Shown one piece after another: positions 1-64,000 of a stretch of 64,000 nt of DNA. The notes below the pieces were generated by a model. The model was given only the letters and a program-made list of their open reading frames with translations. It did no database searches and was not told where the DNA came from. Position numbers and translations under genes: made by a program. Position 1 is the first letter of the stretch. The number at the start of each line of letters is the position of its first letter. Source of the stretch: a virus; IMG/VR virus record IMGVR_UViG_3300046328_000530, positions 1 through 64,000 of that record, one strand, 5' to 3'.

Positions 1-416
1 ATATTGTGTTGCAACATCCCGTGCCACGTCACCTCTATAAAATCCATTTTCTTCATCCAACTTACCCAAGCCAATTCCCCAGTGCTATAAGTTGGCATTG
101 TTACGTTTTTATGCCAGTAAATCATACCTCCTTTTAATCCGAAATAGTTAGCACCCCAAATGATTTGCTTTTTACTTACTCTAAAAAGTTGCTCAAAATA
201 TTCATCATTTGGTATTGCATTATCCCAATTAGTTTTTTTGTAGGTATTGATTTTAGCCATTGATGTTTTTTCGTGCCTATCACTATTTTTGCCATTGTTT
301 TTGTTATCAGCATCAATACCATAAGGTGGGTCAACTATGGCTAAATCATAGTATTTATCAGGTTTACTTTTCATAAACTCAATGCAGTCTATATTATAAA
401 ATTCAATTTTTGCCAT
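1..416 (-). CDS. DNA methyltransferase (DPPY type), N-terminal part, runs off the window
   Basis: Starts at the ATG complementary to 414-416 and stays open to the window edge (138 codons). The N-terminus has the invariant N4/N6 amino-methyltransferase motif DLAIVDPPYGI and continues with the RVSKKQIIWGANYF segment. It is closely related to the methyltransferase at 63019-63714. The last residues visible (WHGMLQHN) normally precede the HPTQKP region and the SAM-binding motif, which are missing here. The piece at 63850-64000 supplies exactly such a C-terminus in a compatible reading phase, so the two are probably one gene across the circle. It is a phage orphan methyltransferase, presumably for self-protection (inference). 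Target sequence unknown. Confidence 0.85.
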   Translation of the reverse strand, partial: MAKIEFYNIDCIEFMKSKPDKYYDLAIVDPPYGIDADNKNNGKNSDRHEKTSMAKINTYKKTNWDNAIPNDEYFEQLFRVSKKQIIWGANYFGLKGGMIYWHKNVTMPTYSTGELAWVSWMKKMDFIEVTWHGMLQHN

Positions 417-471
417 CCATCTTTTTTTCTTTTTTTTATTTAGTGCTTCGATTAAACATTCTGCTAAAAAT

Positions 472-505
472 CCCTACTGCCTATAACAGCGGTTTTGTGC
501 TATTT
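472..505. repeat. attC-like half-site (left arm only)
   Basis: CCCTACTGCCTATAAC (472-487) is the exact reverse complement of GTTATAGGCAGTAGGG at 63774-63789, so it marks the far end of the methyltransferase cassette that crosses the window boundary. It is followed by AGCGGTTTTGTGC, the usual left-arm sequence of the sites in this window. No matching right arm is found before the next site. The downstream gene fills that place, so the site has probably lost one arm by deletion. Confidence 0.6.
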
Positions 506-954
506 TAGGACAGAACCTGCTCAATGACAGATTTTTCAATTATGATACCACGACAATACAATTCGCCATCTTCCATAATGTCAAATGTGGCGTGTGGCAA
601 ATCGGACTTGATACGCCAAGAACATTCCAAATCATCAGGACACCATTCTGCGACAACTTCAACTTTTGGTAATTCAAAATCCAATTCTTTGTCGTCCATA
701 ATTTCCTGCACTTCTTTAAAATCATCTTCACTCATAATATCAATTTTACCACCTTTCTTTTTGACAAGTAAAGCCGAACCACCATCGTATGCCCCGACTT
801 CATCATATACAATACCACGAAATTCTAACAAGTCGTCACTTGCACCAAAGCAAACTAATAGACCGTTTTCCTTTGCCAATTTTTCTTCATCTTTTGTAAT
901 TTCATCACGGTATTGGCGACCGTTTAAAAGTTCTGCGAATTGTTCTTTGTTCAT
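505..954 (-). CDS. hypothetical acidic cassette protein (149 aa)
   Basis: Soluble protein rich in Asp and Glu, without signal peptide or membrane segment. The N-terminus begins MNKEQFAELLNGRQY; a mid-segment GLLVCFGASDDLLEFRG and a conserved-looking CPDD/CSWRIKSDLPHATFDI region suggest a small alpha/beta fold. I recognise it only as a type of protein common in mobile regions of Bacteroidota; no function can be given. Its TAA stop (505-507) lies against the half-site at 472-505, and a full attC-like site follows upstream at 1018-1147, so it is a cassette gene. The start is followed downstream by good coding sequence and preceded by an A-rich leader. Confidence 0.8.
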   Translation of the reverse strand: MNKEQFAELLNGRQYRDEITKDEEKLAKENGLLVCFGASDDLLEFRGIVYDEVGAYDGGSALLVKKKGGKIDIMSEDDFKEVQEIMDDKELDFELPKVEVVAEWCPDDLECSWRIKSDLPHATFDIMEDGELYCRGIIIEKSVIEQVLS

Positions 955-1017
955 TTTTTTTTATTTTTAAATTGTTACTAAATAATTATTTGACACTTGA
1001 CGAAACCGAAAAAAACG

Positions 1018-1147
1018 GCACATAACAGGTGTTTGGCAAAAAAGCCCTTTTGTATTTCTATTTGACATTTGTACTAATTTTAAAAATTTGTAATTCTATT
1101 GAATAGTCGGTTAGGGCTTCTTCGCCAAGCACCCGACCGTTATGGGC
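1018..1147. repeat. attC-like recombination site 1
   Basis: Long imperfect inverted repeat. The left arm is CACATAAC-AGGTGTTTGGC-AAAAAAGCCC, the right arm GGGCTTC-TTCGCCAAGCACC-CGACC-GTTATGGGC. The outer boxes fit the attC consensus RYYYAAC...GTTRRRY. The right arm has one extra G and a longer spacer next to GTT, as in the other sites here. The loop of about 60 bp is AT-rich with a TTGACATTTGTACTAA-like motif. It separates the gene at 505-954 from the Dam-type methyltransferase. Confidence 0.75.
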
Positions 1148-1166
1148 AATTGCAAGAAACACCCTG

Positions 1167-1940
1167 CTAATCGAAAAGCCCTTTTTGTTTTTCATAATTT
1201 GTTATTAATATTTCTGTTCTACGATTTTTTAAGTTTTTCCTTTCGCCAATTATTATGACATTTAAACCTTGTTCTTTTGCTTGGTTAAGAATAAACTCAT
1301 TATCAAATTCACTCATTGCAAATTTGCACCCAGTAGCTTGTAAGCAGTTAAATAAATCAATACTATCCTGTACAGTAAATGAATTGCTATAATTATCATT
1401 CGTTCCTAAATAGGGTGGGTCGCAATAGAAAAAAGATTTTGCCTCGTCATTCCGTCCGTCCGTGTTAAATGTAAGTGTTTTAAAATATTTTCTAAAATCA
1501 TAATTAGTGAATTTACAATCATTAATCATTTCATATGTTTTGTCAATTACTTTAAAAAAAATGTTTTTGTTTTTTGTGAAGGACAAACTCATTCCACTAC
1601 TCACTACACCAATAGTAGTTAAATTGCTAAAAAATAAAAATCTTAAAGCTTTTTGTATAGGGTCTGTTTGTTCATTACTTTTGTAATATTCAAATAAATC
1701 CGAATGAATAGGCATTAAATAAAACGCTTTTTCTAATTCTTCTTTTTGATTAATTACGACTTGAAATAAATTAAAAACTTCACTATCCAAATCATTAACT
1801 ACATTATATTTCGCTTTTGGTTTATTAAAAAACATACCACCAGCCCCAAAAAACGGCTCAAAATATATTTTATGGTCAGGAAAATATTTAATTATATCCT
1901 GTGCTATTGCTTGTTTATTTCCTAATCTTCTTAATATCAT
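1167..1940 (-). CDS. D12-class (Dam-type) DNA N6-adenine methyltransferase
   Basis: Methylates adenine in duplex DNA (family knowledge). An N-terminal RRLGNKQAIAQDI precedes the FEPFFGAGGMFF SAM-binding motif; a central target-recognition part and YCDPPYLGTN (motif IV, DPPY) follow, and the C-terminus has RRTEILITNYE. Length (257 aa) fits Dam enzymes. The open frame extends upstream to 1994 (MQNPCYGQ...), but those codons are the arm of the neighbouring attC-like site, so I choose the internal ATG at 1940 just before the family start. It is the only gene of its cassette; the cassette ends (1139-1153 and 1967-1981) are complementary at 14 of 15 positions. Confidence 0.9.
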   Translation of the reverse strand: MILRRLGNKQAIAQDIIKYFPDHKIYFEPFFGAGGMFFNKPKAKYNVVNDLDSEVFNLFQVVINQKEELEKAFYLMPIHSDLFEYYKSNEQTDPIQKALRFLFFSNLTTIGVVSSGMSLSFTKNKNIFFKVIDKTYEMINDCKFTNYDFRKYFKTLTFNTDGRNDEAKSFFYCDPPYLGTNDNYSNSFTVQDSIDLFNCLQATGCKFAMSEFDNEFILNQAKEQGLNVIIIGERKNLKNRRTEILITNYEKQKGLFD

Positions 1941-1972
1941 TTGACTAAATTTTGAGTACCCGAAAAGCAACT

Positions 1973-2107
1973 GCCCATAACAAGGGTTTTGCAAAAGCAG
2001 GGCATTAGTGGTTTATTGAACATTTTTACTACTATTAAACATTGTGCTAAATTTGAACTTTCGTACCTTGAAGCCCCACCTTCGGCAATACCCGACCCGT
2101 TAGCGGT
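1973..2107. repeat. attC-like recombination site 2
   Basis: Outer boxes GCCCATAAC (1973-1981) and GTTAGCGGT (2099-2107). Arms AAGGGTTTTGC-AAAAGCAGGGC and GCCCCACC-TTCGGCAATACCC pair imperfectly, again with extra bases in the right arm. The loop carries TTGAACATTT and AAACATTGTGCTAAA, motifs shared with the loops of the other sites. The left box is complementary to the start of the Dam cassette and the right box begins the next cassette. Confidence 0.75.
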
Positions 2108-2111
2108 AATA

Positions 2112-2480
2112 CTACCATTCCTCACTATCAGGCAACGTATCTTCAAATCTTTCGTGTTGTTCACCGACAATTTTTAAGTCTTTTATATTTTCACATCGCA
2201 TCATTGACATTCGCAAACCAATATTATTACCTATACTTAATTGATGATTTAACCAGCCGACACAATGTTCTGCATTTTCGCCAGTATCTTTTGAATGATG
2301 ACAAGCCATTATTTTCAAGGCTCTACCAAATCCAAAATCATTTTCTTTTGCAATAGTATCTTGCAAATTCTTGTGTTTAATCTCACAATATCCATCAGGA
2401 ATTTCGTAAGGGTCTGTATCAACTTTCCACGGACATTTTGCACATTGGACAGTTCTTTTAAGTTTAAATTTTTCTGACAT
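2112..2480 (-). CDS. DUF6283 family protein (Cys-rich)
   Basis: 122-aa soluble protein. The motif CAKCPWKVDTDPYEIPDGYC near residue 14, followed by IKHKNLQDTIA, then ACHHSKDTGENAEHCVGWLNHQ, matches the DUF6283 pattern of four to five cysteines and histidines that probably bind a metal. Function unknown. Single gene of a cassette: the ends GTTAGCGGTAATAC (2099) and GTACTACCGCTAAC (2511-2524) are complementary at 13 of 14 positions. The TAG stop lies only 5 bp inside the cassette start. Confidence 0.8.
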   Translation of the reverse strand: MSEKFKLKRTVQCAKCPWKVDTDPYEIPDGYCEIKHKNLQDTIAKENDFGFGRALKIMACHHSKDTGENAEHCVGWLNHQLSIGNNIGLRMSMMRCENIKDLKIVGEQHERFEDTLPDSEEW

Positions 2481-2515
2481 AATAATTCAAAACCCCTTGT
2501 GAATTAAACCGTACT

Positions 2516-2648
2516 ACCGCTAACAAGGGTTTGTAGCAATAGGGGCAGAAGTGCTTTAATTGAGCTGTGTACTTTTAATCAGCTTTTGTGGTAGGTTGAA
2601 CAGTAGTGCTATAAATCCCCTATTGCTACAAGCCCAAACCGTTAGGCG
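2516..2648. repeat. attC-like recombination site 3
   Basis: Boxes ACCGCTAAC (2516-2524) and GTTAGGCG (2641-2648). The arms AAGGGTTTGTAGCAATAGGGG and CCCCTATTGCTACAAGCCC form a stem of about 20 bp with few mismatches, the best paired of all sites here. The right arm again has a longer spacer (AAACC) before GTT. Loop about 70 bp. The TAA stop of the RNA ligase gene is made by the TTA of the right box. Confidence 0.75.
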
Positions 2649-3355
2649 ATATTGTAGAGCGACCAGTTCCATATCAAATTGTGTTCTTCGACATTAATAC
2701 AGAATTGACCTGTTGGAAAATCTGAACGAACATATTTTGCCAAAAAAACAACTTTGCCTTTTCGCTCAACACGATAAACCATCCCTTCAGGAAGTTCAAC
2801 GCTTTCAATTCCTTTTGTCTTTTCATTTAATAATGGCAAAAGTTGTTCAACTGTTATCGGTTGTCCTTCGTGTAATTGGCGTGGCAGTTGCAATCCGTAT
2901 CCAATTGCTTTTGCTCCAAGTTCTTCAAATAAAACACGTTCATTATTTGGCGTGAAATAATCAAAAAACACTATTGGTTCAACTTCAATTCTGTAAACAA
3001 GTCCGTGAGCTTGTGCCAGCCATTCTCCTGTTATTCTTTCGCCATTGTTTAGCATATCTGTAAAAAGCAATTCGCGTTTTTTTACCCAATCAGAAAAGTA
3101 ATGATGTTGTTTATATGGGCTTGTACTTGCTTCATAGCCTGAACGGGTTAAGGCAAATATTTTGTTTTCAAACTTTGCCACGCCAACATTTGAACCATCA
3201 TACTTTTCAAACACTAATATGTTATCGTGCTTATCTCTTGTTTTTAAAGTCAAAATTCGTTCTTGACCTTCTCCAATGTAATAATCCCCTTCGCCTAACT
3301 TCGAGTTATGCAGGTGTGGGATTGAGCCATAATTTTTTCTTCCTATTGGTTTCAT
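2642..3355 (-). CDS. RNA ligase family nucleotidyltransferase
   Basis: Joins or repairs RNA ends with ATP through a covalent lysyl-AMP (family knowledge). Motif I is FEKYDGSNVG with the nucleotidyl lysine K51; then FALTRSG, a motif III-like GERITGEWL, VEPIVFFDYF, a motif IV-like PEGMVYRVER and the motif V lysine in VVFLAKYVR. 237 aa is near the size of the catalytic domain of Rnl2-like ligases, without an extra C-terminal domain. It sits alone in a cassette; its stop codon is inside the right box of site 3. The N-terminal MKPIGRKNYGSI start matches the family's short leader. Likely role: repair of RNA cut by host defence nucleases (inference). Confidence 0.85.
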   Translation of the reverse strand: MKPIGRKNYGSIPHLHNSKLGEGDYYIGEGQERILTLKTRDKHDNILVFEKYDGSNVGVAKFENKIFALTRSGYEASTSPYKQHHYFSDWVKKRELLFTDMLNNGERITGEWLAQAHGLVYRIEVEPIVFFDYFTPNNERVLFEELGAKAIGYGLQLPRQLHEGQPITVEQLLPLLNEKTKGIESVELPEGMVYRVERKGKVVFLAKYVRSDFPTGQFCINVEEHNLIWNWSLYNIA

Positions 3356-3383
3356 ATTTCAAATTTACTGGTTAAAAAACTGC

Positions 3384-3463
3384 GGGTAACAACAGCTAAC
3401 CAAAAGTGGGCGAACTTTTACTACTGTATAGCCCGCCTTCGGTTAGCTGCAAAACGTTATGCC
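3384..3463. repeat. attC-like recombination site 4 (short)
   Basis: Only 80 bp. Boxes GGGTAAC and GTTATGCC. Arms AACAGCTAACC-AAAAGTGGGC and GCCCGCC-TTCGGTTAGCTG pair well, with the extra G again in the right arm and a longer spacer (CAAAAC) before the right GTT. The left box does not match the start of the RNA ligase cassette (GTTAGGCG), so that cassette's end has changed or been replaced. The right box supplies the TAA stop of the next gene. Confidence 0.7.
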
Positions 3464-3684
3464 TTATACTTACCGAGAAAGACATGATTGTCTTCAAAAT
3501 CCTTTTTCATCCTAAAATGCTTGTGTTCGTAATTGACATTCTGAAAGTGATGTTCGCCATTTTTAACTCCAATATACTTATAGTCAATAAATGAAGGTAA
3601 TTGCCAATATCCATCTTTATAAAGGTGATAATGCTTGATTTTAACTTTATCCCCGACTTGTAAATCAGAAAAAGTACAAGGCAT
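3457..3684 (-). CDS. small hypothetical cassette protein (75 aa)
   Basis: Begins MPCTFSDLQVGDKVKIKHYH and contains YIGVKNGEHHFQNV, which looks like a small beta-rich (SH3-like) fold; no function recognised. The frame is open four codons further (MQNV, to 3696), but those codons belong to the attC-like arm GCATAACGTTTTGCA, so the internal ATG at 3684 is preferred. The stop is the TTA of the box GTTATGCC. Cassette ends GTTATGCCTTATAC (3456) and GTACAAGGCATAAC (3674-3687) are complementary at 13 of 14 positions. Confidence 0.65.
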   Translation of the reverse strand: MPCTFSDLQVGDKVKIKHYHLYKDGYWQLPSFIDYKYIGVKNGEHHFQNVNYEHKHFRMKKDFEDNHVFLGKYKA

Positions 3685-3719
3685 AACGTTTTGCACAATA
3701 CTACGAAAGTGCGTTAATT
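3680..3719. repeat. minimal attC-like site 5
   Basis: GGCATAAC, then TTTTGCAC, a loop of about 10 bp, GTGC and GTTAATT. This gives a 40-bp site with only a 4-bp inner stem. The left box is certain because it matches the start of its own cassette; the right half is weaker. The TTA of GTTAATT is the stop of the methyltransferase gene at 3714. Confidence 0.45.
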
Positions 3720-4319
3720 AAACCATTTGAGTTCAGTAGTTCCAACAAAACCTTTTTCCCACACATACCAAGCATAAGCAACAGCACTTCCACCTCCAGC
3801 AACCATCTTTTCAAATTCAGCATTTTTTGCACACATCAGCCGAGAACTTGAAACATAAATTGTCTTTGGTGGGTTTGATAGGAATAGATTTTTTCTACCT
3901 TTCCCTTCCATAAATTGTAATTTCAAAAACATTGCAACCTTGTTTCCTGCTGGTATTATCTGCAATGATTTTTCTACAAACTCCTGTGCATATTTGTAAG
4001 GCGGGTTTGTAATTATATCTCCATTCCATTTAAGGTTATCTATTCCTAAAAAATCTGTTTCTATTTCGCCAAATCCTCTGTCCATCAAATCGCTACTCCT
4101 TACATTATAGCCTTTGCTTTCAAATACCTTGCTTAAATGTCCTTCGCCACAAGCACACTCCCAAATATTTGGCGAAAAAGTTTCAAGTTCTAAAAGCAAT
4201 TCGGCTGCTTTCGGTGTGGTTGCATAGTAATCTTCATTCTGCCTTTCTTTATCTGTATGGTTGCTTGCACCTAATGTTTTGTAGATGCTGTTGCTGTTTC
4301 CTGTCCAATCTTTTGTCAT
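3714..4319 (-). CDS. phage DNA N6-adenine methyltransferase (NPPY type)
   Basis: 201 aa. WECACGEGHLSKVF is the SAM-binding motif I, DLMDRGFGEIETDFL the motif II/III area and DIITNPPYKYAQEFV the catalytic NPPY motif. The rest (AMFLKLQFMEGKGR, KTIYVSSSRLMCAKN) matches small phage and prophage methyltransferases without a separate recognition domain. Third methyltransferase gene of this array. Its stop is made by the box of site 5. The start ATG lies at the right edge of the array; beyond it the phage core genes begin. Confidence 0.85.
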   Translation of the reverse strand: MTKDWTGNSNSIYKTLGASNHTDKERQNEDYYATTPKAAELLLELETFSPNIWECACGEGHLSKVFESKGYNVRSSDLMDRGFGEIETDFLGIDNLKWNGDIITNPPYKYAQEFVEKSLQIIPAGNKVAMFLKLQFMEGKGRKNLFLSNPPKTIYVSSSRLMCAKNAEFEKMVAGGGSAVAYAWYVWEKGFVGTTELKWFN

Positions 4320-12620: not shown

Positions 12621-12860
12621 ATGAAAAGTATTAGCACAGAAAAATCAAGATTAACACTAAAGCAATTCTTTAACCTGCACAAGATACCTGTACACTATGT
12701 GGCAACTTTAGCAGTTATGAATAGATCTCTTCTTCATAACTACATATCAGGAGTTAGTAAGCCAAGCAATAAACAACTGAAAAGAATTGAATTAGCAATT
12801 CACAAGTTAAGCGACGATATCAAATCAGTAAAATTAATAATAGGCAAAAATGAGTTCTGA
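12621..12860 (+). CDS. helix-turn-helix-like small protein
   Basis: 79 aa. LTLKQFFNLHKIPVHYVATL followed by AVMNRSLLHNYISGVSKPSN is a helix-turn-helix of Xre/Cro character (Y-I-S-G-x-x-K-P-S motif). Probably a DNA-binding regulator. Overlaps the RuvC-like gene by 11 bp. Confidence 0.6.
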   Translation: MKSISTEKSRLTLKQFFNLHKIPVHYVATLAVMNRSLLHNYISGVSKPSNKQLKRIELAIHKLSDDIKSVKLIIGKNEF

Positions 12861-13302
12861 AATTAATATATTAGCCATTGATCAAGCAAGCAATGCTGGG
12901 TGGTGTACGAAAAATGGTTATGGAGTTTGGGACTTTAATACAAGGCGTGATGAATCTTCTGGTATGAAAATGCTCAGGTTTCGATCAAAACTTGTAGAGG
13001 TTTGCAAATTAGAGGAAATTAACCTTATTGTTTACGAAAGAGTTGCTGGTCAACATAAAAACTCTATTATTCATGCCGCTAAAATGGTGGCTATGATTGA
13101 GACTTTTTGCGAAGAGAATAATATAAACTATAAAGCCGTATCAGCAAGTGAGATTAAGAAATTTGCAACAGGAAAGGGAAATGCAAATAAAGATAAGATG
13201 ATTGAATCTGCAAGAGTTCAATACGGATATGATGGGAATGATGATAATGAAGCAGATGCTATACATATTTATCATCACACAATATCAGACCTTAATATTT
13301 AG
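12850..13302 (+). CDS. RuvC-like Holliday junction resolvase
   Basis: RNase H-fold nuclease for branched DNA (family knowledge). First acidic residue in ILAIDQASNAGWC, the second in LIVYERVAGQHKN, and the pair in YDGNDDNEADAIHI; KAVSASEIKKFATGKGNANK is the RuvC-like lysine segment. 150 aa matches phage RuvC homologues. Resolves recombination intermediates before packaging. Confidence 0.85.
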   Translation: MSSEINILAIDQASNAGWCTKNGYGVWDFNTRRDESSGMKMLRFRSKLVEVCKLEEINLIVYERVAGQHKNSIIHAAKMVAMIETFCEENNINYKAVSASEIKKFATGKGNANKDKMIESARVQYGYDGNDDNEADAIHIYHHTISDLNI

Positions 13303-15436: not shown

Positions 15437-15829
15437 ATGAATAGAAATACTGTTGTAAATTCATTTAATTGGTATGGCGATTTGAATGATTTTATTGATG
15501 ATGTAAAACCTGATAGGTGGAAAGTATTTCAAGCATTAAGAGTTGAGGGGCAAAATGACAAACAATTTGATGAAATAAAAGTTACCGAAGAACAATTTGA
15601 AAGCTACATAAACAACCATAATCATCAAAAATCTATTGTGGTAGAAGACAATGAGGCAATGACAGGAAGTTATCTTTTGATTGACCCACAAGGTAGATTA
15701 TTTGAAAACTCAAAAGGGAAACATACATATTCAAAAACATTACAAGATAATGATATTGACAGTTGTTTGTCAGAAATAAATTTAAACAGAGAAATGTTTG
15801 TCAAACGAGGGGGCATCTATGAATGGTAG
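15437..15829 (+). pseudogene. C-terminal fragment of a prokaryotic viperin (pVip), radical SAM core missing
   Basis: 130 aa. NTVVNSFNWYGDLNDFIDDV, PDRWKVFQALRVEGQND, EDNEAMTGSYLLIDPQGR and EMFVKRGGIYEW line up with the second half of viperins (animal viperin has RWKVFQCLLIEGEN and MFLKRGGKY at the same places). Viperins make chain-terminating ddh-nucleotides and act as antiviral enzymes. The first half, with the C-x3-C-x2-C iron-sulfur motif, is absent; only 25 bp separate this frame from the DnaA-like gene, so the gene was cut there. No function as an enzyme is expected; the fragment has an intact ATG and stop. It is followed at once by an attC-like arm, so it may have arrived on a cassette. 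Confidence 0.8.
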
Positions 15830-15844: not shown

Positions 15845-15878
15845 CTCCTAACGTTTCGCAGATTTGCGATGGGCGGGA
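15845..15878. repeat. left arm of inverted repeat bounding accessory block II
   Basis: CTCCTAACGTT-TCGCAGATTTGCGAT-GGGCGGGA. Its reverse complement, with the same outer 11 bp and inner 8 bp, stands at 20819-20852. The box CTCCTAAC fits attC RYYYAAC. The two arms together would make one attC-like site whose loop now holds about 4.9 kb. Confidence 0.6.
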
Positions 15879-15918
15879 TTTAGAAAACGAATTTATCAAC
15901 TTAAAACAAAAATTTATA

Positions 15919-16622
15919 TGGAACACGAAACATCATTAAACAACGAAAAACATCGCCTAACAGCAGATTTGCTATTAGGCGATGTTTTTCTCCCACTTCT
16001 CAAAAAATTTGCATCAAATTATGATATGAGAGAATGGATGGCAACCCCTTTCAATGTAGGAAATAGAACGGTTGCGACAAATGGCTATTGCTTATTATCA
16101 ACTCCTTTTCAAGAAGGGTTTAATGATAGAAGCGAAAAAACAAAAACAGTTTATCCTATGGATCATAAGATAAACAAACCTATTCCAGTTGATGAATTAA
16201 AGCAAAAATTAAAAGAATTTCCTTTAGTGGATTGCTTTGATGAAATTGAAACAACGTGCGATGCTTGTAATGGCGATGGAGAGGTAGAATTTGAGTTTTA
16301 TCATAGTGGAAAAACCTATGAAATGGAACACGATTGCCCTGTTTGCGATGGGCAAGGAGTAACAAATACACAATCAAAAACACCAAACGGTAAAAAGGAA
16401 CTTGACTACAACAAATTCTTTCAAATTGGTAAGTGCATTTTCAATGTTGCAAGAGTAGAAGAATTGATTTATGTCGCTGACTATTTAAAATCCGATGTTG
16501 TAAATATTGTAAACCAAACGGAGAAAAACAGAGCTTCTTTATTTACAATAAAAGATGTCGAAATGTTGGTAATGCCTATGATGTGTGATGATGAACGGAA
16601 TGTCGCTCAAAATATCGCCTAA
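15919..16622 (+). CDS. hypothetical protein with CxxCxGxG zinc-binding repeats
   Basis: Start taken at 15919 (MEHETSLNNEK); the upstream frame runs into the attC-like arm. 234 aa. TRTVATNGYC-like strings (VGNRTVATNGYCLL) resemble a DUF found in Bacteroidota mobile regions; CDACNGDGEVEF and CPVCDGQGV are a DnaJ-type pair of C-x2-C-x-G-x-G motifs that bind one zinc. The cassette edges lie inside the gene: TTAGGCGATG at 15975 and ATATCGCCTAA, whose TAA is the stop codon, at 16612-16622. An ATG at 16021 would give a shorter product that starts inside the cassette. Function unknown. Confidence 0.6.
15945..15990. repeat. perfect 16-bp inverted repeat inside a coding region (mini attC-like)
   Basis: GAAAAACATCGCCTAA and TTAGGCGATGTTTTTC enclose CAGCAGATTTGCTA, which itself has AGCA/TGCT. 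The boxes GCCTAAC and TTAGGC fit an attC, except that the base before TTAGGC is A, not G. The segment encodes NEKHRLTADLLLGDVF of the zinc-binding protein. Confidence 0.55.
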
Positions 16623-16772
16623 CGGTTAATTAACAACTAAATTTAATACGAAGATGAATAAAGAAATTTCACAAAGCGATGGCGAATTGGCTTTTAGTTC
16701 ATATCATTATGCGACCACACTCTTTTTAATTTTCTGAATATCATATTCTTTTTGTTTTGTGCCAATAAAAAC

Positions 16773-16909
16773 GGCTTATAACAGCGGTTTTAAGAAATGG
16801 CGGGTTTAGTGATTAATTTAAACATTGTGTGTACTTTTGTGTTTTGGCTTTACCGAAAGTTTTGGCTTGTAAATCCGCAACTTCTTAAAGCCACGATACG
16901 TTATATGCC
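16773..16909. repeat. attC-like recombination site 6
   Basis: Boxes GGCTTATAAC (16773-16782) and GTTATATGCC (16900-16909). Arms AGCGGTTTTAAGAAATGGCGGG and ATCCGCAACTTCTTAAAGCC pair over about 20 bp, with a longer spacer (ACGATAC) before the right GTT. Loop about 75 bp containing TTTAAACATTGTG. It is the upstream border of the restriction-modification cassette. The rest of 16623-17023 holds no gene. Confidence 0.75.
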
Positions 16910-16959
16910 ATTTTAGGGCGACAGTACAAAGATAAGCATTTGTGCTAAAATTTCAACAT

Positions 16960-16996
16960 TTTGATACCACTCCCTACCAAAAAATATGTAACTTTG
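16960..16996 (+). promoter_or_regulatory. promoter inside the restriction-modification cassette
   Basis: TAACTTTG at 16989-16996 is a good -7 box, with TTTG at 16960-16963 (spacer 25, longer than usual). It lies 28 bp before the ATG at 17024 and inside the cassette edge at 16900, so the cassette carries its own promoter. Confidence 0.45.
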
Positions 16997-17023
16997 CAAA
17001 TTATAATTTTAATTACAAATTAA

Positions 17024-18844
17024 ATGGCTAACGAAAGCAAAACAGAATTATTAGTTTATGACCACTTCAAGAAATTTGAAGACAAAATAACTATTGAACC
17101 TAAAAAGTCAAGCAATCCTGCTATTGACAAACTTCTGCAAAATGCTTCCAAAAAAGGAAATTTTAAAGGATACCCTGAATATATTATATCATTTAATGAA
17201 TATCCTGACTTATTAATAGTTATAGAATGTAAAGCACATAATATAAAACACCAAAGCAATACTCCTAAATTTGACAAATATGCGGATTATGCTGTAGATG
17301 GGGCATTACTTTACGCTTCATTTTTACAAAAAGAGTTTAATGTAATAGCAATTGGAATTAGCGGAGAAACAAAAAAAGATTTAAAAATTTCTCATTTTTT
17401 ATTCCTAAAGGAACAAAAAAATTATACTACAATATTTGACGATAAACTTTTAGATATTGATAGTTATGTACAAGGCTTCTTAAAAAGTCCTGAAAAATTT
17501 AAACAAGACTATGATAGTTTAATCAAGTACTCAAAAGAACTAAACGAAGAACTACAAAATAAAAAAGTAAAAGAAAATCAACGTAGTCTTTTAATAAGTG
17601 GTATTATGATAGCACTTGACAACAGAGTTTTTTCTAAAACATATAAAGAACATACAACACCTAAAGACCTTGCAGACAATTTAGTTACTACTGTAATTAC
17701 TCAATTGAAAAATGCTAAAATTGGAGTGAGTAAACTTGAAAATTTGGAAGTTGCTTATTCATTCATTAAAGTTCACAGTGCATTAGCAAATGAAAATGGT
17801 GTTTTAGTAAATCTTATTAAAAATATTGATGAAAAGGTAAACAGTTTTATCCGTTCTCATAAATACTTTGACGTATTATCTGAATTTTACATTGAATTTT
17901 TAAGAAAATCAAATAGCGATAAAGGTTTAGGAATTGTGTTAACACCACACCATATCACGGATTTATTCAACGCAATTGCAGGTACAAATAAAGAAAGTAT
18001 AGTTTTTGATAACTGTACAGGAACTTCAGGGTTTCTTGTAAGTGCAATGAGAGCAATGTTTAAAGATGCAAAAGGCGACATTACAAGAGAAGATAATATC
18101 AAACAAAAACAACTTATAGGAATTGAAGAACAATCAGATATTTATGCTTTGGCTTGTAGCAATATGTATTTGCAAGGAGATGGAAAAAGCAATTTAATTT
18201 ATGGTAGTTGTTTTGAAGATTTACATATTAAAAAAGTAAAAACTTTTAATCCAAATATTGGTTTTCTAAATCCACCATACAAAGCAAATAAAAAGAAAGA
18301 CACAGAAGAATTAGAATTTGTATTGAATAATTTAGAATGTTTAGTGCCTAACGGCACTTGCATTGCAATTATTCCAATGCAGTGTGCTTTAGCTCAAAAA
18401 GGCAAAATACTTGAACTAAAGAAAAAAATACTTTCTAAACATACATTAGAAGCAGTAATGAGTATGCCAGATGAATTATTTTTTAATTCAAACGTTGGAG
18501 TAGTTTCTTGTATTATGGTTTTTACAGCTCACAAAGTACACCCGACAAACAAAGAAACATATTTTGGTTATTGGAAAGATGACGGATTTGTAAAACGTAA
18601 AATAAAAGGGCGTTTTGACGCTTTAAATAAGTGGCAAGGAGTTAAAGAAAAATGGATAGAAAGTTATATCAATAAAAAATCTATTGCAGGAATGAGTGTA
18701 ATGAAGTCTATTACTGCAAATGATGAATGGTGTGCAGAAGCATATATGGAAACGGATTACAATTCATTGAATGAAATTGATTTTATAAAAACTATCAAAG
18801 ATTTTGTATTTACAAACGAACTATACATTAAAAAATGGAATTAG
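17024..18844 (+). CDS. BcgI-like restriction-modification subunit (nuclease plus N6-adenine methylase)
   Basis: 606 aa, fusion. Residues about 1-180 form a PD-(D/E)xK nuclease: YPDLLIVIECKAHN has P61-D62 and E68-x-K70. A helical linker follows, then an HsdM-type methylase: HHITDLFNAIAG, VFDNCTGTSGFLV (motif I) and IGFLNPPYKAN (motif IV, NPPY). A separate specificity subunit follows with a 10-bp overlap. This is the arrangement of type IIB/BcgI enzymes, which cut and methylate with one A subunit and one B subunit. No key residue is missing. The two genes fill one cassette between attC-like sites 6 and 7, with complementary ends GTTATATGCC and GGCATATAAC. Confidence 0.85.
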   Translation: MANESKTELLVYDHFKKFEDKITIEPKKSSNPAIDKLLQNASKKGNFKGYPEYIISFNEYPDLLIVIECKAHNIKHQSNTPKFDKYADYAVDGALLYASFLQKEFNVIAIGISGETKKDLKISHFLFLKEQKNYTTIFDDKLLDIDSYVQGFLKSPEKFKQDYDSLIKYSKELNEELQNKKVKENQRSLLISGIMIALDNRVFSKTYKEHTTPKDLADNLVTTVITQLKNAKIGVSKLENLEVAYSFIKVHSALANENGVLVNLIKNIDEKVNSFIRSHKYFDVLSEFYIEFLRKSNSDKGLGIVLTPHHITDLFNAIAGTNKESIVFDNCTGTSGFLVSAMRAMFKDAKGDITREDNIKQKQLIGIEEQSDIYALACSNMYLQGDGKSNLIYGSCFEDLHIKKVKTFNPNIGFLNPPYKANKKKDTEELEFVLNNLECLVPNGTCIAIIPMQCALAQKGKILELKKKILSKHTLEAVMSMPDELFFNSNVGVVSCIMVFTAHKVHPTNKETYFGYWKDDGFVKRKIKGRFDALNKWQGVKEKWIESYINKKSIAGMSVMKSITANDEWCAEAYMETDYNSLNEIDFIKTIKDFVFTNELYIKKWN

Positions 18845-19797
18845 TCCCAATACATAAACTATTTACTGTAAAGTATGGTGTTAATCTTGAATTAGTACAC
18901 CTTGAGCAATGTTCAAAAGACGATGAAAACTCTATAAATTTTGTTTCACGTACTGAAAACAATAATGGAGTTTCGGCTTTTGTTATAAAATCAGAAGATA
19001 TAACACCCAATCCAAAACATACGATTTCAGTTGCAGGCGGTGGTTCTGTACTTTCTTCCTTTTACCAAGAAGAAGAATATTATAGTGGAAGAGATATATA
19101 TTATTTAAAACCACTAACTAATTTCTCAAAATTAGAGATGTTATTTTATGCTTTTTGCCTAACAAAAAATAAATACAAATACAATTACGGCAGACAAGCA
19201 AATAAAACTTTAAAAGATATTTTAGTTCCCTCTAAAATGCCAAAATCTTTTGAAAAATTAGACATAAACGAACTTAATACTTTAAATAGAAAAAGCACTT
19301 TAAATTCTAATATTGAACTTAATCATAATAATTGGGGGTGGTTTTCATTGAGCGACCCAAGATTATTTAAAATATCGGGAACAAAAACAACACCTTTATT
19401 AGAACTTGAAGAATTTGGAAAAGGAGAAAAACCATTTGTAACAACACAAGCCAGTAATAATGGGATAGGTGGCTTTTTTGACTTCTCAACAGAAACAGGA
19501 AATGTTTTGACAGTTGATAGTGCTGTTATTGGCTATTGTTCATATCAACCTTTAGACTTTTCAGCAAGCGACCACGTTGAAAAATTAACACCCACTTTTA
19601 GACTAAATAAATACATAGCATTGTTTATAGCGACAATTATCAATAAAGAACAATATCGTTATAATTATGGACGTAAAGCAAGTCAAACAAGACTAAAAAG
19701 AGCTAACATAAAACTTCCTGTAAAGCAAAACGGACAACCCGACTTTGAATATATGGAGAACTATATTAAAACATTACCATATTCAAGCACAATATAA
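18835..19797 (+). CDS. type I-like specificity subunit (HsdS/BcgIB type)
   Basis: 320 aa with two target-recognition halves. The first ends with NKYKYNYGRQANKTLKDILV, the second with EQYRYNYGRKASQTRLKRAN, a clear internal repeat; GKGEKPFVTTQASNNGIGGF marks the second recognition domain. It gives DNA sequence specificity to the preceding nuclease-methylase. The 10-bp overlap shows coupled translation. It ends 18 bp before attC-like site 7. Confidence 0.85.
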   Translation: MELVPIHKLFTVKYGVNLELVHLEQCSKDDENSINFVSRTENNNGVSAFVIKSEDITPNPKHTISVAGGGSVLSSFYQEEEYYSGRDIYYLKPLTNFSKLEMLFYAFCLTKNKYKYNYGRQANKTLKDILVPSKMPKSFEKLDINELNTLNRKSTLNSNIELNHNNWGWFSLSDPRLFKISGTKTTPLLELEEFGKGEKPFVTTQASNNGIGGFFDFSTETGNVLTVDSAVIGYCSYQPLDFSASDHVEKLTPTFRLNKYIALFIATIINKEQYRYNYGRKASQTRLKRANIKLPVKQNGQPDFEYMENYIKTLPYSSTI

Positions 19798-19815
19798 AAC
19801 AATAAGAAGAAAAAC

Positions 19816-19953
19816 GGCATATAACAGGGGTTTTGCAAAAAAGCGGGTTCAGTGCTAAATTGAACATTTGGAATTCTAATGAACATTTGTGCTAAACCGA
19901 ACATTTGTGCTTTCTAATCCGCTTCTTCGCAAAGCCACGATACGTTATATGCC
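19816..19953. repeat. attC-like recombination site 7
   Basis: Boxes GGCATATAAC (19816-19825) and GTTATATGCC (19944-19953). Arms AGGGGTTTTGC-AAAAAAGCGG and CCGCTTC-TTCGCAAAGCC, extra G in the right arm, spacer ACGATAC before GTT. The loop has the motif GAACATTTG three times. Box and spacer of the right arm are nearly identical to site 6. Confidence 0.8.
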
Positions 19954-20018
19954 TTGCTGACCGTTTCCAATTGAAGTTCCTTGAAGGAAAAACAAAAAGA
20001 AAAAAGCCACCGCACTTT

Positions 20019-20762
20019 TTAAAATAGTTTCGTTTGACATAGTTCTAATTCTAATCGTTTCATTGATTTTTCGTAATACTCTTTATTCATTTCTGCACCT
20101 ATAAAGTTTCGTTTCTCTAAAATACAAGCGTGTGCAGTTGTTCCACTTCCCATATAACCATCAAATACCAAATCGTTTTCGTTGCTGAAGGTTTGAATAA
20201 GGTATCTAATCAAATCAATTGTTTTTTGTGTTGGATGGTCGTTTTCACTTGTTCTATCTCCATTGCTAAAATCAATTACACTTTGCGGAAAATATTGGTC
20301 ATCCACTTTAGTTTTTCCTTCATAGCTTCCGTAATTTGTTGTCGCATTACCTTTTTTACTTCCTTTCATTCGCATTTTACCAACAACCATTTGCGGATTA
20401 TAAGTTGGCAGTTTTCTATAAAAAACTAATATCATTTCGTGGTTTCTCATCGGCATTTTGTTAGCGTTTAAAAATCCAGTTCCTAATGCTTTGTACCAAA
20501 TCAAATCATATCTGAAATTCTTTTGGTTGCTCAATATCAATTCACTTGCAAATGGTTGTGTAGCAAAAAATATCATTGCTCCATTTTCTTTTGTTACTCG
20601 CTCCCATTCAGTCCACATTTTAGGTAAATCGGGCTTTATATCCCATTCGTTTTGAGTGCAACCAAAAGGAGTATCTTGCAAAAGCAAATCAATAGTTCCG
20701 CTTTCAATTTCCTGCAACAATTCGTAACAGTCCTGATTATATATTTTATTTATTTCCACCAT
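20019..20762 (-). CDS. DNA methyltransferase with DTPF in place of DPPY
   Basis: 247 aa. MVEINKIYNQDCYELLQEIE, LLLQDTPFGCTQNEWDI (motif IV position) and a C-terminal HPTQKTIDLIRYLIQTF, VFDGYMGSGTTAHAC (SAM motif I) and FIGAEMNKEYYEKSMKRL make a beta-class N4/N6 methyltransferase. DTPF instead of DPPY is rarer but seen in this class (D-x-P-Y/F). It lies against the direction of the restriction-modification pair in the same block. Its 3' flank (AAAAGCCACCGCACTTTTTA) resembles the 3' flank of the methyltransferase at 63850. Confidence 0.85.
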   Translation of the reverse strand: MVEINKIYNQDCYELLQEIESGTIDLLLQDTPFGCTQNEWDIKPDLPKMWTEWERVTKENGAMIFFATQPFASELILSNQKNFRYDLIWYKALGTGFLNANKMPMRNHEMILVFYRKLPTYNPQMVVGKMRMKGSKKGNATTNYGSYEGKTKVDDQYFPQSVIDFSNGDRTSENDHPTQKTIDLIRYLIQTFSNENDLVFDGYMGSGTTAHACILEKRNFIGAEMNKEYYEKSMKRLELELCQTKLF

Positions 20763-20818
20763 TCTTTTTTCTTTTTGTTTTTCTGTTTAGTGTTCCAATT
20801 GGGCTTTGTGCTTAATAG

Positions 20819-20852
20819 TCCCGCCCGAACGCATATACTCGAACGTTAGGAG
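20819..20852. repeat. right arm of inverted repeat bounding accessory block II
   Basis: TCCCGCCC-GAACGCATATACTCG-AACGTTAGGAG. Reverse complement partner of 15845-15878. From 20853 to 21040 I see no gene; this stretch holds a short palindrome GGGTAA-CA-TTACCC and an inverted repeat ACAATTATA...TATAATTGT at about 20983-21016. Confidence 0.6.
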
Positions 20853-62983: not shown

Positions 62984-63017
62984 AAAAAGTTGCGTATATC
63001 TATGAGTTATACGCAAC
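62984..63017 (-). terminator. terminator after the methyltransferase at 63019
   Basis: Stem GTTGCGTATA / TATACGCAAC (62989-62998, 63008-63017) with a 9-nt loop; read leftward it is followed by TTTTTACAT. It lies directly downstream of the methyltransferase gene and would separate the array from the late region. Confidence 0.55.
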
Positions 63018-63018
63018 C

Positions 63019-63714
63019 CTAAAAGAGCCGCTGCTGTCTTTTGTGCAAATTGAAAGCGTTTACACCCGATTGAAAATATTCTGAATCAATTTCACAAATA
63101 TCTAAGTCGAAGCCTTCAATTTCACACGCTATTGCACTTGTCATACTTCCGCCGTGAGTGTCTAATATTTTCATTCCAGTTTCGGCATATTTCAAACAAT
63201 ACCTATATAAATCTATTGGTTTTTGACAAATGTGTCTCCTGTCAGTCATTACAGTTCTTTTTCTAAACATTCGGGTTGCCGTTGTAAACGAAGTCCATGC
63301 AATTTCGCAATCTGAAAAATAGCTTTCCCCGTTTTTTTTATCCCAAACAATAAAACAACTTGTAGGCTTTTCAATTAAATCAATAAAGTAATTACCCCCC
63401 CAAATGATTTGCTTTTTACTTACTCTAAAAAGTTCATTAAAATACTCCTTACTTGGTCGTTCAAAGTCCCATTGTGTTTCGCTGGCAATGCTCCCTTTAT
63501 TTTCTTTTCTTTGCCCCCAGTTTCCAGCTTCGGTTTTTACTAATCCAATCCCATACGGAGGGTCAACAATTGCCAAATCAAAACATTTGTCAGGCTTCGA
63601 CTTCATAAACTCAATGCAATCCACATTGAAAAAATTAATAGAAGGGCAGCGGCTAACACTCGCTATATGCAATGCGGGGTTACTGCTAATTTGTAAGTTC
63701 ATATCTTCGTTCAT
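63019..63714 (-). CDS. DNA methyltransferase (DPPY type)
   Basis: 231 aa from the ATG at 63714; the frame is open to 63762. NFFNVDCIEFMKSKPDKCFD, LAIVDPPYGIGLVKTEAGNW (motif IV), RVSKKQIIWGGNYF, then CQKPIDLYRYCLKYAETGMK, ILDTHGGSMTSAIACEIEGF (SAM motif I) and ICEIDSEYFQSGVNAF make a complete beta-class N4/N6 methyltransferase. The first 20 residues (MNEDMNLQISSNPALHIASV) are encoded by the arm of an attC-like site, so the original gene start was displaced. Sister of the gene split over the window ends. Terminator follows. Confidence 0.85.
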   Translation of the reverse strand: MNEDMNLQISSNPALHIASVSRCPSINFFNVDCIEFMKSKPDKCFDLAIVDPPYGIGLVKTEAGNWGQRKENKGSIASETQWDFERPSKEYFNELFRVSKKQIIWGGNYFIDLIEKPTSCFIVWDKKNGESYFSDCEIAWTSFTTATRMFRKRTVMTDRRHICQKPIDLYRYCLKYAETGMKILDTHGGSMTSAIACEIEGFDLDICEIDSEYFQSGVNAFNLHKRQQRLF

Positions 63715-63780
63715 TCTGTATCGTATTTTGATAGTTTTGTACTTGTAAATCCCGCACTGCACATAGCGGAAACGTTATAG
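63651..63780. repeat. attC-like recombination site 8
   Basis: Boxes GGCTAAC (63651-63657) and GTTATAG (63774-63780). Arms GCTATATGCAATGCGGGGTTA and TAAATCCCGCACTGCACATAGC pair over about 20 bp. The left arm lies inside the methyltransferase coding sequence. The right box opens the cassette that continues over the window edge to the half-site at 472-487. Confidence 0.7.
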
Positions 63781-63849
63781 GCAGTAGGGCAGACGTTCTT
63801 CGTTTCAACATTTGTGGAAGAAAAAAAAGAAAAAAAGCCCACCGCACTT

Positions 63850-64000
63850 TTAAAACATTTGTAATTGTTGTTTATACTCATTGTATTTTTTTACTCCGTT
63901 ATTAAAATAATCAGTATCTATTTCGCATATATCCAAATCAAAACCTTCTTTATCACAAGCAATAGCAATACTCATACTGCCTCCGTGTGTGTCTAAAATC
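63850..64000 (-). CDS. DNA methyltransferase, C-terminal part (continues past the window)
   Basis: ILDTHGGSMSIAIACDKEGF (SAM motif I), DLDICEIDTDYFNNGVKKYN and QQLQMF, stop at 63850-63852. It is nearly the same as the C-terminus of the gene at 63019 and has the part missing from the fragment at 1-416. Reading phase fits a continuous gene with a gap of a multiple of three (about 75-95 bp if the length is like its sister). The region 63781-63849 contains the cassette start and a purine-rich stretch before the stop. Confidence 0.8.
   Translation of the reverse strand, partial: ILDTHGGSMSIAIACDKEGFDLDICEIDTDYFNNGVKKYNEYKQQLQMF

Follow-up and report, generated by a model that had tools for sequence, protein, structure and literature searches.

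The locus between positions 15845 and 20852 raises the question of what kind of element carries several genes between inverted ends, and how these genes arrived. The record comprises 64,097 bases with terminase and virion genes and is that of a virus of Bacteroidota bacteria; its first 64,000 bases form the window that was analysed. The original prediction had reported a 34-bp inverted repeat enclosing a zinc-binding protein gene, two attC-like sites, a restriction-modification (R-M) pair and a methyltransferase, and had read the two arms as one attC-like site opened by insertion of captured cassettes in its loop. The repeat, the enclosed content, with the first gene encoding a zinc-ribbon protein, and the presence of captured cassettes were all confirmed. 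In a gapped local alignment, the left arm (CTCCTAACGTTTCGCAGATTTGCGATGGGCGGGA, 15845-15878) and the right arm (TCCCGCCCGAACGCATATACTCGAACGTTAGGAG, 20819-20852) reach a score of 37, the maximum among 1987 random window pairs being 32. The ungapped comparison gives 20 matches over 34 bases, mostly at the ends. The R' hallmark AACGTTA is present in both arms.

The arms were identified by comparison with related sites. The motif of the left arm was found in 13 viral and 86 genome stretches, nearly all from Bacteroidota, where it constitutes the first half of a site of ~130 bp (TAACGTTTTGCAGATTTGCGATGGGCGGG ... CCCGCCTATTGCAAATGTGCTGTTA), its own R'' half lying almost always no more than ~130 bp further on. 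Read on the opposite strand, this site has the boxes of an attC, TAACA as R'' and CGTTA as R'. The motif of the right arm is the R'/L' half of a sister type, which is found as a complete site with its own partner in L015-L017. Because more than 100 related sites show the R'/L' identity of both, the arms are like halves of two separate attC sites in opposed orientation. The left arm is the R'/L' half of the attC of the zinc cassette (canonical on the minus strand), with the crossover TAA|C between 15851 and 15852. The right arm is the L'/R' half of a sister-type attC (plus strand), with the crossover G|TTA between 20845 and 20846. The inverted repeat at the block ends thus results from an R'/L' half at each outer joint and from the opposed orientation of the two parts. 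The altered R'' half of the attC of the left arm is located ~100 bp inside that arm (15951-15986, minus strand), rebuilt as a perfect 17-bp hairpin (compare L006/L014). An R'' half for the attC of the methyltransferase cassette, to which the right arm belongs, was looked for in the block and not found. The assignment of the two arms to halves of one site was rejected, as the homologous complete sites make both of them R'/L'.

Seven complete attC-type sites, with inverted boxes R''/L''..L'/R' and cores AAC and GTT, are present in the window; six of them score at least 32, a value attained by no shuffled window. Two are found inside the block on the plus strand, at 16779-16903 (score 34) and 19822-19947 (score 32), and their attC-like character agrees with the original prediction. 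The folding energies of single intact sites are mostly not above those of shuffles, so that the assignment of the attC stems rests on comparison and not on energy. The zinc site is canonical on the minus strand and ends at the left flank CTCCTAA, whereas the other sites are canonical on the plus strand and end at the right flank TTAGGAG. The flanking genes form a plus-strand run on the left and a minus-strand run on the right, which places the block at a convergent junction, like several arrays in related contigs.

The zinc-protein cassette, delimited by the rule from related phages, extends from 15852 to 16622; its gene is reversed relative to attC and its ends pair (TTAGGCGAT/ATCGCCTAA). The zinc-ribbon protein gene (15918-16622, plus strand) has its ATG in the attC loop, its ~20 first codons (15918-15977) are part of the attC, and its stop TAA coincides with the crossover. 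The segment 16623-16900, which consists of a flipped start (C GGTT..) and the complete attC, is presumably a remnant between the two parts of the block. The R-M cassette (16901-19944, plus strand; paired ends TTATATGCC/GGCATATAA) is the only one with the canonical layout, a forward gene followed by an attC in the same direction (19822-19947), the zinc and methyltransferase genes being reversed. It encodes a type IIG-like restriction enzyme-methyltransferase (17024-18844, plus strand; Pfam N6_Mtase; PADLOC REase_MTase_IIG, 2e-148) and a specificity subunit (18835-19797, plus strand; Pfam Methylase_S; PADLOC Specificity_II). This pair (17024-19797) is a seemingly complete system carried by a phage, beyond an orphan methyltransferase. 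The methyltransferase cassette (19945-20845) contains a reversed gene for an N6/N4 DNA methyltransferase (20019-20762, minus strand; Pfam N6_N4_Mtase, 1e-30) and keeps only the R' half of its site. The start of the cassette is complementary to its own R'' box in the zinc and R-M cassettes, and not in the methyltransferase cassette. The missing R'' half of the methyltransferase site and the alteration of the zinc site mean that the block may have lost its mobility.

The gene adjoining the block on the left (15437-15829) matches only the C-terminal half of viperin (PDB, PADLOC pVip). Residues 3-130 align with the last ~130 of viperin and the radical SAM half is absent. A viperin fragment beside cassettes in a phage is odd.

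In classical integrons, the crossover point of the R' box is G^TTA, equivalent to TAA^C when the gene strand is read. The original prediction was right that related phages with a different block content would be decisive. Six such contigs (L153/L154, L155, L156, L158 and L159) have in common the end of an endolysin-like gene (...TTGATAGGATAA|) and a right flank (|CTTGCGGCTTTGCGCTACTATATCG), between which one to three cassettes are found per contig: A in two of them, then A followed by B, C followed by A, D alone, and E, F, G. When the joint sequences were compared, every joint of this series was TAA|C, that is G^TTA on the opposite strand. In the relative L160, the same gene has a TGA stop, and there is neither TAAC nor array. 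Cassette C is found in L014 and cassette B in L010, and each is absent from relatives that are 92-97% identical. In a set of 29 pairs of neighbouring sites, the bases that follow R'' are complementary to the end of the next gene at 8.79 of 11 positions, compared with 6.19 ± 0.23 for shuffled partners. The joints at TAA|C and the pairing of the ends indicate that the mobile unit is [C - attC - gene - TAA], with the attC upstream of its own gene. It was also considered that the leader site could be an acceptor, with genes inserted at R'' as forward cassettes; this was rejected, as the unit common to relatives is the attC with the downstream gene and the joints are TAA|C. The crossover at G^TT in R' was seen in six relatives and is assigned to the window itself by analogy. 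Searches with the tail protein, DUF3127 and the zinc protein returned no close relative of the window phage, so its empty site was not seen. A near-identity search of phage isolates gave no match to the window phage, and a DNA search of the phage isolate collection returned no leader-type site.

The block is probably a run of swappable integron-type cassettes in mixed orientation and without integrase (a CALIN), which entered by G^TTA recombination and owes its inverted ends to its opposed parts. Its chemistry is likely ordinary and its layout is unusual. Cassettes would enter by ordinary site-specific recombination at G^TTA of the R' box. They would land on the TAA^C that closes the left operon and on the G^TTA of the right flank, where two phage operons converge. 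The zinc cassette would be the left-anchored part, and the methyltransferase and R-M cassettes the right-anchored part. With two such anchors, the empty joints would read CTCCTAAC..GTTAGGAG joined. In a reversed cassette the attC stands upstream; for the zinc gene, the attC loop would provide the start codon and ~20 N-terminal residues, and the stop TAA is the crossover. With this reversed layout, transcription and translation of the phage operon could extend to the captured genes. The order of events in the block is a reconstruction.

Inverted ends could also result from an array that once had a single orientation and in which a stretch between R' boxes, or between the arms, was flipped. Sites of both orientations are indeed found in one block, the core AACGTT is palindromic, and mixed orientation is also known in the Polaribacter phage P12002L (PMC9892861). 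However, at both outer joints the cassettes are joined normally, with R' facing outward, the similarity of the outside flanks does not extend past the short palindrome, and the insertion of two arrays needs no extra step; an inversion is considered unlikely. Nested capture, in which one attC was opened by cassettes inserted in its loop, would fit the complementarity of the arms over ~34 bases and the weak palindrome of the outer flanks, but it is contradicted by the homologous complete sites. There both arms are R'/L', whereas one arm of an opened site should be R''/L'' (TAACAGCACATTTGCAATAGGCGGGG type), and an altered R'' half belonging to the left arm is present inside the block. An ordinary G^TTA (TAA^C) crossover accounts for each outer joint without any insertion in a loop, and nested capture is considered very improbable. 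The split site of the original prediction is thus abandoned, while its weakly palindromic surroundings are retained: the bases outside the crossovers (TTAA.GT..CTCCTAA) are palindromic with p = 0.03 by alignment and 0.005 for the 7-base match, and it is plausible that both arrays sit on a single ancestral hairpin that offered two landing points in inverted orientation. An element with 34-bp terminal inverted repeats, either a composite transposon or a new mobile unit, would explain inverted ends around cargo genes and is scarcely credible, as no transposase is found among the block genes, which had been correctly noted at the outset, no target-site duplication is visible in the flanks (outer bases ..GGTTG and ATACT..), and the arms occur singly elsewhere, in attC sites beside different genes.

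The orientation of genes relative to attC was counted by applying one motif to both the viral and the bacterial collections. Nearly all cassette genes in related Bacteroidota phages are reversed relative to attC, and the attC is upstream of its own gene. The genes are reversed at 17 of 18 scorable viral sites and forward at 129 of 149 bacterial sites (reversed to forward 17:1 versus 20:129, p = 3e-12). The viral counts include close relatives and duplicates, which overstates independence, and about ten different-looking contigs agree. Counted by locus, the ratio is 10:0 for viruses (one tie) and 7:58 for bacteria (two ties; p = 2e-8). The ratio is 43:3 over the whole set of viral contigs and 3:0 in the isolate P12002L.

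The attC also appears to contribute to the encoded proteins. An ATG inside the attC, with a frame open for at least 40 codons beyond, was found at 33 of 52 viral sites and 27 of 169 bacterial sites (p = 1.6e-10). The 33 attC leaders listed belong to several sequence types, and several leader-bearing genes have no other ATG near their start. When the zinc protein of the window is aligned with its homologues in Polaribacter and Cellulophaga phage isolates, the match begins at its residue ~21. The preceding ~20 residues, MEHETSLNNEKHRLTADLLL, are extra relative to the isolate homologues and correspond exactly to the attC-coded part. No attC was detected around the homologous gene of Danklef or of Freya, and the surroundings of the phi18:3 homologue gave a single borderline site. 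The first ~20 residues of the zinc protein thus appear to be encoded by the attC, from a leader that is presumably translated.

A second cassette block spans the record ends (1-4300 and 63000-64000) and contains five complete attC sites. Its genes, which include methyltransferases, are mostly on the minus strand and reversed relative to the attC sites. One of these sites (63654-63777, plus strand) contains the beginning of a reversed methyltransferase gene, with an ATG near 63714 and the leader MNEDMNLQISSNPALHIASV. Two R' boxes that face outward (TTATGCC...GGCATAA, 24 bp, 96% complementary) enclose the short segment 3456-3689, another orientation switch.

The recombinase was looked for in the record and in related genomes. 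No tyrosine recombinase (PF00589) was found in the whole 64,097-base record, which may be incomplete, and no complete integron (intI and attI next to an array) was found. Two array-bearing phage contigs have XerC/D-like recombinases directly beside the array (L110:1659-2492 and L111:1386-2189). Among 45 Bacteroidota genomes with type-I sites, no IntI scored above the NCBIfam cut-off. These genomes have IntI relatives in which the region of the model with the IntI-specific insert (about 180-238) is unmatched. The Bacteroidota recombinases L113-L132 match the IntI model at both ends and not at positions ~180-238, and attC sites are nearby in 6 of the 20 best IntI-like Bacteroidota recombinases. 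It is possible that L113-L132 are unrecognised integron integrases. IntI1 uses other phage attC sites in a published assay (PMC9892861). We infer that the integrase is provided by the host or a phage and is not a standard IntI. The window also encodes a RuvC-like Holliday junction resolvase (12850-13302), with attC cruciforms as a possible substrate.

Integron cassettes have already been reported in phages: clusters of attC sites without integron integrase (CALINs), with methyltransferases and functional attC sites, were described by Qi et al. 2023 (PMC9892861), as were inverted GTTRRRY motifs at CALIN boundaries in other phages. The present block resembles them by its attC sites and cassettes, its methyltransferase cargo, the absence of integrase, the divergent attC directions seen in the Polaribacter phage and the inverted boundary motifs. 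In contrast, systematic gene reversal, start codons inside attC (the term "start codon" is absent from that text) and cassette exchange at a phage stop codon are not part of that report. Chromosomal arrays of Bacteroidota have the same type-I attC, alike in site sequence and core (86 genome stretches), but their genes are mostly forward (129:20), with the attC downstream of the gene. Among translated recombination sites, the closest precedent known is ORF-11 in attI1 of class 1 integrons, a short translated frame that aids expression of the next gene (PMC8876359). In both cases a frame lies inside a recombination site; that of ORF-11 is in a fixed attI and acts by translational coupling, whereas the phage frame moves with its attC and reads directly, as an in-frame fusion, into the gene of its own cassette. 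The open-access literature searched yielded no description of systematically reversed genes or of start codons within attC. The combination of reversed genes, an attC upstream of its own gene and a start codon often in the attC loop looks new, and these features probably define a phage-specific variant of gene cassettes.

A broader proposal, with perhaps an even chance of being right, is that Bacteroidota phages have domesticated cassettes inside-out. The TAA^C stops at operon ends would be the landing sites, and the travelling attC would combine a capture site, a ribosome entry and an N-terminal tag fused to the cassette gene. The related contigs document cassette exchange in phages as an allelic series at sequence level, with recombination sites that apparently encode protein N-termini. 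They suggest a route by which a phage without an integron platform could express captured genes. The findings also draw attention to Bacteroidota recombinases that the standard IntI model misses, and to the carriage by phages of cassette genes, among them those of methyltransferases and restriction-modification systems.
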